Made by a program: the position numbers and the translations under genes
From: Streptomyces djakartensis
GTDB lineage: Bacteria > Actinomycetota > Actinomycetes > Streptomycetales > Streptomycetaceae
Assembly (NCBI RefSeq): GCF_014651075.1
Contig: NZ_BMWE01000004.1
Coordinates: 1-64,000, forward strand
Direction: 5' to 3'
DNA length: 64,000 nt
Part shown: positions 34,385 through 41,609 of the stretch, piece after piece
How the letters are laid out: every line of letters starts with the position of its first letter
Position numbering within the stretch: position 1 is the first letter of the stretch
Notes under the pieces: generated by a model
Databases searched by the model: none
Told to the model about the DNA's origin: nothing
Seen by the model: only the letters and a program-made list of their open reading frames with translations

Positions 34385-34457
34385 GGGGCTATAGCTCAGT
34401 TGGTAGAGCGCCTGCATGGCATGCAGGAGGTCAGGAGTTCAATTCTCCTTAGCTCCA
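34385..34457 (+). tRNA. tRNA-Ala (anticodon GGC), copy 1
   Basis: 73 nt with acceptor GGGGCTA/TAGCTCC, D-loop AGCTCAGTTGGTAGAGC, anticodon stem CCTGC/GCAGG with loop ATGGCAT (anticodon GGC), T-arm AGGAGTTCAATTCTCCT, and discriminator A. CCA is not encoded. It is identical to the second copy at 35214-35286. Confidence 0.95.
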
Positions 34458-34463
34458 CGTCAA

Positions 34464-35213: not shown

Positions 35214-35286
35214 GGGGCTATAGCTCAGTTGGTAGAGCGCCTGCATGGCATGCAGGAGGTCAGGAGTTCAATTCTCCTTAGCTCCA
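35214..35286 (+). tRNA. tRNA-Ala (anticodon GGC), copy 2
   Basis: Same 73-nt sequence as copy 1. The identity extends only a few bases outside the tRNA (GA upstream, C downstream), so the duplication is confined to the gene. No CCA encoded. Confidence 0.95.
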
Positions 35287-35296
35287 CAGAAGATGA

Positions 35297-38260: not shown

Positions 38261-38560
38261 GACCGGCCTCCCCACATCCCGGCGACCGGATGTAGCGAGC
38301 TGTTACTGCGATGAGGGTTCATGGGGGCAACTCCGAGCGGTTCGGGAAAGCGGTCCCGCTGCCGCACTCTAAACGGAGCCATACCGATGGGTACGAGGTT
38401 TGAGTTATTGCGTTGTTATCAAGAGACAATGTGCTTGTTGTGATGTCCCTTAGTGACTATTACGCGAAGTAACCTTTGACCATGGTTCAGCTTTTCGGGT
38501 ACCGGGTGGCCCTCGCGGAGCGCCTCGCGGCGCGCTGAGGGCCTGCGGTACCCTATCGCC
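38261..38560. promoter_or_regulatory. Divergent promoter region between the cytochrome and leuS
   Basis: A 300-bp region with an AT-rich island at about 38395-38490, unusual for this genome. It contains TTGACC (38476-38481) facing leuS and a TACCCT (38549-38554) placed 6 bp before the leuS leader ATG. It must contain start sites for both divergent transcripts. The exact promoters are inference. Confidence 0.4.
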
Positions 38561-38599
38561 ATGCGTGCCGTACGCCTTCTGCTTAGCGGGCCGCGCTGA
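38561..38599 (+). CDS. leuS leader peptide with three consecutive Leu codons
   Basis: ATG 38561 to TGA 38599 encodes the 12-residue peptide [12 protein letters not shown]. The codons CTT-CTG-CTT (38576-38584) are in a row. No ribosome-binding site precedes the ATG, but a TACCCT -10-like element ends 6 bp upstream, so the peptide could be translated from a leaderless transcript. It lies directly before a hairpin and a terminator upstream of leuS. The leader is expected to sense charged leucyl-tRNA. I recall that attenuators of this type have been predicted upstream of actinobacterial leuS. Confidence 0.7.
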
Positions 38600-38671
38600 T
38601 CAGTCCCGGCCACCGGGCGAGCCGAGTGGCCGGAGTCAGCGCGGCGTCCCCTCCTGTGCGAGGGGATTTTT
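38590..38671 (+). promoter_or_regulatory. leuS attenuator: leader hairpin plus intrinsic terminator
   Basis: Stem GCCGCGCTGA (38590-38599, containing the leader stop codon) pairs perfectly with 38636-38645. Inside it, CCGGCCAC (38606-38613) pairs with 38626-38633. The terminator TCCCCTC (38647-38653) pairs with 38660-38666, followed by TTTTT. A ribosome stalled at the leucine codons would mask the first arm. A competing antiterminator pairing was not identified with confidence. No T-box signature is present, so classic translation-coupled attenuation is favoured. Confidence 0.65.
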
Positions 38672-38726
38672 CGTTTCACGAACCCCACAGCCGCAGGCAG
38701 AGACGATCGATGGAGCTTTGAGGATC

Positions 38727-41609
38727 ATGAGCGAGACGAACCCCGCTGCCGCTTCCGAGGTGGCAGCGCCGCACCGCTACACGGCCGCCATGGCAGCCGA
38801 GATCGAGGCACGCTGGCAGGACTTCTGGGACGCCGACGGCACCTACGCCGCGCCCAACCCGAAGGGTGACCTGGCGGGCGACCCGGGGATCGCCGCGCGG
38901 CCCAAGAAGTTCATCATGGACATGTTCCCGTACCCCTCCGGCGCGGGCCTGCACGTCGGTCACCCCCTGGGCTACATCGCCACCGACGTCTTCGCCCGCT
39001 TCCAGCGGATGACCGGGCACAACGTCCTGCACACCCTCGGCTTCGACGCCTTCGGCCTGCCCGCGGAGCAGTACGCGGTGCAGACCGGCACGCACCCGCG
39101 TGTGTCCACCGAGGCCAACATGGAGAACATGAAGTCCCAGCTGCGCCGGCTGGGACTGGGCCACGACAAGCGCCGGTCGTTCGCCACGATCGACCCGGAC
39201 TACTACAAGTGGACCCAGTGGATCTTCCTGCAGATCTTCAACTCCTGGTACGACCACGAGGCGAAAAAGGCCCGTCCGATCTCCGAACTGGTCGCCCGGT
39301 TCGAGTCCGGTGAGCGGCCCGTACCGGGCCACACGCGGGCGTGGAGCGAGCTGACCGAGGCCGAGAAGGCCGACGTCCTGGGCGAGTTCCGGCTGGCCTA
39401 CGCCTCCGACGCGCCGGTCAACTGGTGCCCCGGGCTGGGCACCGTGCTGGCCAACGAGGAGGTCACCGCCGAGGGCCGCTCCGAGCGCGGCAACTTCCCG
39501 GTCTTCAAGGCCAAGCTGCGCCAGTGGAACATGCGCATCACCGCCTACGCCGACCGGCTGCTGGAGGACCTGGACGCGCTGGACTGGCCCGAGGCCATCA
39601 AGCTGCAGCAGCGCAACTGGATCGGCCGCTCCGAGGGCGCCCGGGTCGACTTCCCCATCGACGGCGAGCGCATCACCGTCTTCACCACCCGCCCCGACAC
39701 CCTGTTCGGCGCCACCTACATGGTGCTGGCGCCCGAGCACCCGCTGGTGGAGAAGTTCACACCGGACGCCTGGCCCGAGGGCACCCACGACGTCTGGACC
39801 GGCGGTCACGCGACCCCGGCCGAGGCCGTCGCCGCCTACCGCGCCCAGGCCGCCTCCAAGTCCGACGTCGAGCGCCAGGCCGAGGCCAAGGACAAGACCG
39901 GCGTCTTCATCGGCTCGTACGCGACCAACCCGGTCAACGGCGAGCAGATCCCGGTCTTCATCGCCGACTACGTGCTGATGGGCTACGGCACCGGCGCGAT
40001 CATGGCCGTCCCGGCCGGTGACCAGCGGGACTTCGAGTTCGCGCGCGCCTTCGAGCTGCCGGTCCACTGCATCGTCGAGCCGACCGACGGCCGCGGCACG
40101 GACACCGCCACCTGGGAGAGCGCCTTCGCGTCGCACGACGCGAGGATCATCAACTCGTCGAACGACGAGGTCAGCCTGGACGGCCTGGGCGTCGCCGAGG
40201 CCAAGGCGCGCATCACCGAATGGCTGGAGAACAAGGGCATCGGCGAAGGCACCGTCAACTTCCGTCTGCGTGACTGGCTGTTCAGCCGCCAGCGCTACTG
40301 GGGCGAGCCCTTCCCGATCGTCTACGACGAGGACGGCATCGCCCACGCGCTGCCCGAGTCGATGCTGCCGCTGGAACTGCCCGAGGTCGAGGACTACTCG
40401 CCGCGCACCTTCGACCCGGACGACGCCGACACCCAGCCCGAGACGCCGCTGTCGCGCAACGAGGACTGGGTCAACGTGACGCTGGACCTGGGCGACGGGC
40501 CGAAGAAGTACCGCCGCGAGACCAACACCATGCCCAACTGGGCCGGTTCCTGCTGGTACGAGCTGCGCTACCTGGACCCGCACAACAGCGAGAAGCTGGT
40601 CGACCCGGAGATCGAGCAGTACTGGATGGGCCCGCGCGAGGGTATGCCACACGGCGGCGTCGACCTGTACGTCGGCGGGGCCGAGCACGCCGTGCTGCAC
40701 CTGCTGTACGCGCGCTTCTGGTCCAAGGTGCTGTTCGACCTGGGACACGTCTCCTCGGCCGAGCCGTTCCACAAGCTGTTCAACCAGGGCATGATCCAGG
40801 CCTACGTGTACCGCGACAGCCGTGGCATCGCGGTGCCGGCCGCCGAGGTGGAGGAGCGCGACGGCGCCTACTACTACCAGGGCGAGAAGGTCTCCCGGCT
40901 GCTGGGCAAGATGGGCAAGTCGCTGAAGAACGCCGTCACCCCGGACGAGATCTGCGAGGAGTACGGCGCCGACACGCTGCGCCTGTACGAGATGGCGATG
41001 GGCCCGCTGGACGTCTCCCGGCCCTGGGACACGCGCGCGGTGGTCGGCCAGTTCCGGCTGCTGCAGCGGCTGTGGCGCAACATCGTCGACGAGGCCACCG
41101 GCGAGGTGACCGTCGTCGACGTCGAGGAGGCCGACATCGACGGGGAGACGCTGCGCGCCCTGCACAAGGCCATCGACGGGGTGCGCGGCGACCTGGAGGG
41201 CATGCGGTTCAACACCGCCATCGCCAAGGTCACCGAGCTGAACAACCACCTGACCAAGGCCGGCGGGGCCGTGCCGCGCTCCGTGGCCGAGCCGCTGGTG
41301 CTGATGGTCGCGCCGCTGGCCCCGCACATCGCCGAGGAGCTGTGGCGCAGGCTGGGTCACGAGGACTCGGTGGTGCACCAGGCCTTCCCGGTGGCCGACC
41401 CGGCGTACGTGGTCGACGAGACCGTGACATGTGTGGTGCAGGTCAAGGGCAAGGTGAAGGCGCGCCTGGAGGTCTCGCCGTCCGTCTCCGACGAGGAGCT
41501 GGAGAAGGTCGCGCTGGCCGACGAGAAGGTCGTCGCCGCGCTGGGCGGGGCCGGGATCCGGAAGGTGATCGTGCGGGCCCCCAAGCTGGTGAACATCGTC
41601 CCCGCGTGA
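38727..41609 (+). CDS. leuS: Leucyl-tRNA synthetase
   Basis: Class I synthetase that charges tRNA-Leu, 960 residues. The HIGH motif is His76-Val-Gly-His79 in [16 protein letters not shown]. The editing (CP1) domain follows in the middle of the protein (for example [20 protein letters not shown]). The KMSKS motif is Lys728-Met-Gly-Lys-Ser732, and the anticodon-binding and C-terminal domains follow, ending [14 protein letters not shown]. The start is ATG 38727, just downstream of the attenuator. An insertion of ~20 residues in the N-terminal part is typical of actinobacteria. Confidence 0.98.

Follow-up and report, generated by a model that had tools for sequence, protein, structure and literature searches.

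What does a 12-codon reading frame with a run of leucine codons do in front of the gene for leucyl-tRNA synthetase? The arrangement lies in Streptomyces djakartensis, in a 64,000-nt stretch of contig NZ_BMWE01000004.1 (assembly GCF_014651075.1; hereafter the window), where leuS occupies positions 38727 to 41609 of the forward strand and encodes a 960-residue enzyme identified by TIGR00396 (920.5 bits against a cut-off of 548.4). Our analysis indicates that the element upstream of it is a real and conserved, probably leucine-responsive attenuator, spread far more widely than Streptomyces and variant in design.

Within Streptomyces the leuS element is already known, because Seliverstov et al. 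(2005; PMC1262725) predicted classical leuS attenuators, consisting of leader, antiterminator and terminator, in S. avermitilis and S. coelicolor, and an RNA-seq reannotation of S. lividans TK24 (2021; PMC8079986) describes LeuL2, a leaderless frame upstream of leuS with a hairpin and a uridine stretch. The leader peptide of the window matches LeuL2 at 11 of 12 residues, and the two loci are alike in gene, leader, leaderless start (predicted from the sequence in our case), hairpin and U-tailed terminator. In the available passages of the 2005 paper, whose genome list includes Kineococcus, Leifsonia, Nocardia and Thermobifida, leuS attenuators are named for Streptomyces only. Further literature passages contained nothing on leuS leaders.

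The leader region of leuS

All features described here lie on the forward strand. The leader frame runs from its ATG at 38561 to a TGA at 38597-38599, and the three consecutive leucine codons that a sequence-only reading had picked out, CTT-CTG-CTT, can be read directly at 38576-38584, the last of them ending 5 nt before a long stem. Folding places a small 5' hairpin inside the frame (38563-38575), for which 99.7% of cells were paired across 62 sequences, with almost no variation. The long stem joins a 5' arm, A (38590-38600), to a 3' arm, A' (38635-38645), as a perfect 10-bp helix between GCCGCGCTGA (38590-38599) and TCAGCGCGGC (38636-38645), extended by one U-G pair. The resulting main hairpin (38590-38645) encloses a second stem-loop (38606-38633) of 8 bp, with 3 more past a bulge, which is variable and missing from many relatives. 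Both stems had been recognized before, but the stop codon, then described as enclosed by the main stem, sits in arm A itself, at its inner end and outside the loop. The end of A' directly adjoins an intrinsic terminator (38646-38671), seen in the sequence, in a terminator scan and in the fold, whose hairpin (38646-38667) leads into a T-run (38667-38671); as the earlier reading had it, the leuS ATG (38727) follows 55 nt later. The segment 38561-38690 folds at -67.6 kcal/mol (z -4.1), a value that none of 200 shuffles reached, and both strands of 38270-38740 together hold three terminator-like sites, two of them overlapping at the leuS terminator, versus 0.4 expected.

Upstream of the frame, a -10 box, TACCCT (38549-38554), is separated from the leader ATG by 6 nt, so the expected transcription start is the A of that ATG. 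A sigma-70 scan of the region reported no promoter because a -35 match is missing, and, as already remarked from the letters alone, no purine-rich ribosome-binding site was seen 5' of the ATG. The suggestion that the leader is translated from a leaderless mRNA fared well: it is what the spacing of the box predicts, and it has been published for S. lividans, where the start site of the transcript was mapped and in which 17% of transcripts are reported as leaderless, with a TAnnnT box at a mean of 6.3 nt from the start (PMC8079986), a pattern that the window fits. An inverted repeat, GGGTACC...GGCCCTC / GAGGGCC...GGTACCC, spans this promoter region (38497-38554), and different inverted repeats occupy the matching position at loci L068, L074 and L075.

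A T-box was rejected on the grounds that neither the window nor related loci gave an Rfam match to one, in line with the missing T-box signature noted earlier. In the window no regulatory Rfam family was found and only two tRNAs matched; no regulatory family was matched in 17 sources, and the T-box was absent from 16 related loci at the gathering threshold. Two tRNA-Ala (GGC) genes (34385-34458 and 35214-35287), about 0.8 kb apart and with equal Rfam scores, are probably a duplication.

Spread and conservation of the element

The 187-nt leuS leader region matched 293 of 295 genomes of the genus, the two without a match being G001 (79% complete) and G044 (100% complete). Second matches in 14 genomes were re-examined and set aside: those in G008, G028 and G034 were a split piece of the same region, and the rest, short and elsewhere, were taken for chance. 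Fetching by LeuS similarity yielded 80 loci, 75 Streptomyces-type and 5 distant (L077-L081). A leader was recovered in 73 of the 75; for the other two (L059, L076) the range read by our script includes hardly any sequence upstream of the gene, or none. At the 5 distant loci the script found no convincing leader.

A covariance model, R1, built from 62 Streptomyces-type sequences matched all 147 genomes of the order and, in a draw from the class, 104 of 296 genomes in 45 of 114 genera. We fetched 80 of these places. Outside the genus the class gave 78 matches, of which 69 were taken (the other nine all belong to the genus g37); 10 of the 15 matches from other genera of the order and one match within the genus made up the rest. 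leuS lay downstream at 76; the remaining four preceded a contig end (L221), leuC (L251), cimA (L259) and a gene that may be leuA-like (L260). A second model, R2, from 79 sequences, matched 180 of 296 class genomes in 83 of 114 genera, counts that include elements before other genes. In a phylum draw it matched 16 of 149 genomes, 8 of them within the class; the two strongest of the 8 outside it (L293, L294) were fetched, and both precede leuS. R1 and R2 are less sensitive to elements with other spacings, because the models were built on alignments of this kind. That the leuS element extends beyond Streptomyces and is recognizable across the class is new here, although a 2010 comparative paper by Lopatovskaya et al. 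(Mol Biol 44:128) may already cover leuS leaders of further Actinobacteria. Genes for two kinds of LeuS lie downstream of the element, with 36-44% (35 loci) versus 59-83% (41 loci) identity to the LeuS of the window among 76 loci, and one genome (G487) has a LeuS of each kind, both with the element (L194, L231). Either the leuS regulator persisted through a change of enzyme or it accompanied that change.

Among the 73 Streptomyces-type leaders plus the window, codon 4 is GTA and codon 8 CTT in 74 of 74, codon 6 is CTT in 68 of 74, and conservation is greater at the DNA than at the peptide level. The -10 hexamer has T at -12, A at -11 and T at -7 in 96-97% of 74 sequences. At the R1 places, the script found a leader frame in 76 of 80, two of them (L251, L260) not before leuS. 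These distant leaders start with ATG (46) or GTG (30) and carry LLL in 71 of 76; at L214, which the script misread, another frame offers a plausible leader, MQTRVLLTEPR. A TAnnnT box lies 6 or 7 nt 5' of the start in 75 of 76, a count biased upward by the preference of the script for starts with such a box among alternatives.

In 70 of 71 leaders a gap of 5 nt separates the last leucine codon from the stem, and that codon is CTT in 67 of 71, compared with 0.6% CTT among 1434 leucine codons in the downstream parts of leuS. The start of the stop codon varies from -2 to +25 relative to the stem, with one outlier (-2 in 12, +7 in 54 and further in 10), while in 74 of 76 the CCCC core follows A' at a distance of 2 or 3 nt. 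Over the 80 places, the size of the hairpin loop lies between -1 and 50 nt.

Pairing in the main stem and terminator is supported by covariation. In 79 sequences, of which 69 are distant and 10 Streptomyces-type, 12 of 19 pairs changed on both sides and 95.4% of cells were paired, a level reached by none of 500 shuffles; the model-fitted alignment leans towards the structure. Two base pairs at the foot of the terminator also show compensatory changes. In the Streptomyces-type sequences alone the main stem is nearly invariant, and compensatory changes occur in 8 of 11 pairs of the inner stem. Aligned across relatives, as the sequence-only reading had suggested doing, the leader ATG and leucine codons are thus conserved and the stems covary; the lack of conservation that this reading had named as a refutation was not seen. 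This conservation makes chance untenable as an explanation of the element, and together with the covariation it also rules out an ordinary gene-end terminator.

Leaders before cimA, ilvB, leuC and leuA

Elements of this kind were not confined to leuS. Twenty weaker or second R2 matches were fetched, which lay before leuS (6), cimA (9), ilvB (3), leuC (1) and an unnamed gene (L291), near which no branched-chain gene was recognized. NCBIfam models identified the leuC protein, five of the cimA proteins and two of the ilvB proteins, mostly partial sequences that score just under the cut-off. The cimA elements, at ten loci with a leader (L276, L279, L280, L281, L283, L286, L289, L290, L295 and L259), combine a leaderless leader, two or three isoleucine codons, a hairpin and an abutting terminator. 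Examples of their peptides are MHRTAIIIN and MPSQLIIIAGRAG, and the last isoleucine codon ends 4-5 nt before the stem in 9 of the 10, these being the ones read by the script, L259 included. The genome of the window has its own candidate cimA leader, MLSFAMIIGSRRAGPQ, on contig C22 (L300). Among the literature matches listed, judged by their titles, we found none on a leader attenuator before cimA; the nearest, on leader attenuation of citramalate synthase, concerns Methanothermobacter by its title.

The ilvB leaders, two of three of which were read by the script, carry isoleucine, leucine and valine codons. They share the leader, hairpin, terminator and abutment with the leuS element and differ from it in codons and gene, as holds for the ilvB leader of Actinobacteria (ilvL). 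Before leuC, leaders with a leucine run (MLIARLLLSGRDES at L292 and MRTVLLLLSGRDETSF at L251) apparently have no U-tailed terminator. Four weak matches to the element occur in the genome of the window. One is the leader of leuA, MRFGLLLLSCRGEGL, with the same sequence as S. lividans LeuL1; another is L299, and at L296 and L298 the script found no leader. The LEU element of leuA shares with the leuS element a leaderless leader with a leucine run; it differs in having no typical terminator and, as far as the available passages go, in a proposed pseudoknot of the leucine codons with the ribosome-binding site (PMC1262725, PMC8079986).

The control codons therefore follow the gene: leucine before leuS and leuC, isoleucine before cimA, and isoleucine, leucine and valine before ilvB. 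This match, the fixed codon spacing and the conservation of a rare codon are hard to explain if the codons have no regulatory part and a protein, or leader translation in general, sets the level of termination, a reading that we regard as improbable. It draws on the statement in the available text of Seliverstov et al. that mutating codons of the ilvB leader in S. coelicolor was without effect (PMC1262725), which is the strongest warning against our interpretation of the leucine codons; the same source reports that codon mutations in the S. coelicolor leuA leader did not fit classical attenuation.

Ribosome position and the fate of the terminator

Does a stalled ribosome switch the structure by strand exchange, as in trp leaders? 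For several ribosome positions we determined the energy lost when the terminator is forbidden, using equilibrium folding and an assumed ribosome edge. Two trp leaders served as controls, that of E. coli and one from the genome of the window, which resembles TrpL1 of S. lividans and was found by a shorter Trp pattern after a longer one had found nothing. For E. coli trpL the cost was 11.7 kcal/mol with no ribosome and 14.0 with a ribosome at the stop codon, and it fell to 3.5 and 4.7 with a ribosome stalled on Trp; for the second leader the corresponding values were 13.4, 19.4 and 8.7-9.5. Even the trpL terminator is the most probable structure in every state (0.96-0.98 in the folding), so only the direction in which the cost changes is informative.

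For the leuS elements the direction was the opposite. The mean cost over 74 class-wide elements was 6.7 kcal/mol with no ribosome, 7.5 at the stop codon, 12.8 at the first leucine codon and 8.8 at the third; over 74 elements of the Streptomyces set it was 6.5, 6.2, 12.1 and 7.4, respectively. For 13 cimA and ilvB elements it was 10.8, 8.0 at the stop codon and 14.9 stalled. By base pairing alone, then, the stalled state is predicted to favour the terminator most in all three kinds of element, and the leuS terminator was predicted in every ribosome state. A base-sharing antiterminator favoured by stalling, seen as a switch in both trp controls, was not found in the leuS elements by equilibrium folding. 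As the cost rises on stalling, the leuS, cimA and ilvB elements appear to work without the strand exchange of trp leaders. With trp attenuators they share a short leader with control codons, a stop codon beside or in the hairpin, an intrinsic terminator and, presumably, a stalled ribosome as the sensor; they differ in that a stalled ribosome at trp gives an alternative that takes terminator bases (cost down to 3.5 and 8.7 kcal/mol), whereas at leuS the cost rises. Of the attenuation architecture first proposed for this locus, the leader, the leucine codons and the stems thus stand, now with covariation, but the folding gave no antiterminator of the classical scheme. Compared with the 2005 description of the leuS attenuator, taken from its text, ours is class-wide and yielded no base-sharing antiterminator.

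An antiterminator of this kind might have escaped equilibrium folding, for instance by forming only during transcription, a reading that we consider unlikely, although it is the most probable of the rivals. An example would be pairing of the leucine-codon stretch (leader nt 16-29) with the terminator loop and 3' arm. When the terminator is forbidden, this stretch does pair with the 3' arm in most of the 74 Streptomyces-type sequences; at L074 (Streptomyces humicola) its helix with the loop and 3' arm can reach about 11 bp and matches the terminator fold in stability; and pairing with the arm is somewhat stronger for the real leucine codons than for synonymous codons weighted by usage (mean z -1.1, n = 73). 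The available text of Seliverstov et al. likewise calls the leuS elements classical (PMC1262725). However, the pairing needs free leucine codons, which a stalled ribosome would prevent, and forbidding the terminator costs a mean of 6.5-6.7 kcal/mol with no ribosome, compared with 12.1-12.8 with a stall at the first leucine codon. Compensatory changes were not found for it, and CTC would pair better with the terminator arm than the conserved CTT. We rejected it as the working antiterminator for want of covariation and for its wrong ribosome dependence, and keep it as a rival.

The folding costs also bear on the polarity of the response. Were A:A' to sequester A', a ribosome at the stop codon would free A' and allow readthrough when leucine is plentiful, and the lower cost at the stop codon than on stalling (7.5 versus 12.8 kcal/mol for 74 leuS elements; 8.0 versus 14.9 for the 13 cimA/ilvB elements) points that way. 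Yet biosynthetic genes such as cimA and ilvB would then be switched on by their own end product, and since any freed GC-rich strand gains further pairing partners, the effect may not be specific to these elements; we hold this polarity to be very improbable.

The element has one further feature, the abutment of the main stem on the terminator. In minimum-energy folds the gap between stem A and the terminator was 0-1 nt at 69 of 77 leuS-search loci (the 80 R1 places minus L251, L259 and L260) and at most 2 nt at 74. It was 0-1 nt in 59 and 2 nt in 15 of the 74 Streptomyces-type sequences, and 0-1 nt at 13 of 13 cimA/ilvB loci, all three ilvB loci showing the abutment. A stem of at least 9 bp ends this near a random window position with a chance of 2.5% (4000 trials), although both the search model and minimum-energy folding bias the result in part towards flush spacing. 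An intrinsic terminator must close to its base within the RNA polymerase exit channel, and with A:A' ending flush against it, the two helices may be mutually exclusive there.

The position of the leucine codons may decide which helix forms. In frameshift signals, an intact stem meets the ribosome when about 5-8 nt of spacer follow the A-site codon. By this rule, the 5-nt spacing should leave stem A standing when a ribosome halts on any of the three leucine codons, and let a ribosome that has moved past them open it; with a wider assumed ribosome edge, a halt at the third codon would already open the base of stem A.

Together these features favour, on balance, a leucine-responsive, ribosome-mediated transcription attenuator of leuS in which the abutting stem blocks the terminator. 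The A of the leader's ATG would be the first nucleotide of the transcript, so that the ribosome begins at a bare 5' end. With leucyl-tRNA plentiful, the ribosome would pass the three leucine codons onto the stop codon in arm A, where it would block A:A' pairing, and the terminator would end transcription. With leucyl-tRNA short, it would halt on the leucine codons, the 5-nt gap would leave the stem free, and A would pair with A'; flush with each other, A:A' and the terminator helix could not close together in the exit channel, the terminator would fail, and leuS would be transcribed. Anatomy, conservation, covariation, codon choice and spacing all support an attenuator, and a response to leucine is very likely. 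That its direction is readthrough into leuS on leucine shortage is likely too, if slightly less so; because cimA and ilvB carry the same design, control by end product would likewise call for readthrough on starvation. The steric step, exclusion of the terminator by the abutting helix, is a possibility that we put somewhat below an even chance. Base pairing alone favours the terminator on stalling, against the proposed outcome, and only this step would reverse it. Helix abutment and codon spacing would then give the expected polarity, with the same reserve as the step itself.

More tentatively still, we suggest that a single kind of attenuator with a leaderless leader stands before leuS, cimA, ilvB and some leuC genes across the Actinomycetes, and that before leuS, cimA and ilvB stalling controls termination by steric exclusion within RNA polymerase, with no sharing of bases. 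If this is true, branched-chain amino acids would be sensed class-wide by a single design placed before both a tRNA synthetase gene and biosynthetic genes, leaderless translation would initiate the sensing, and helix abutment would replace strand exchange as the switch.
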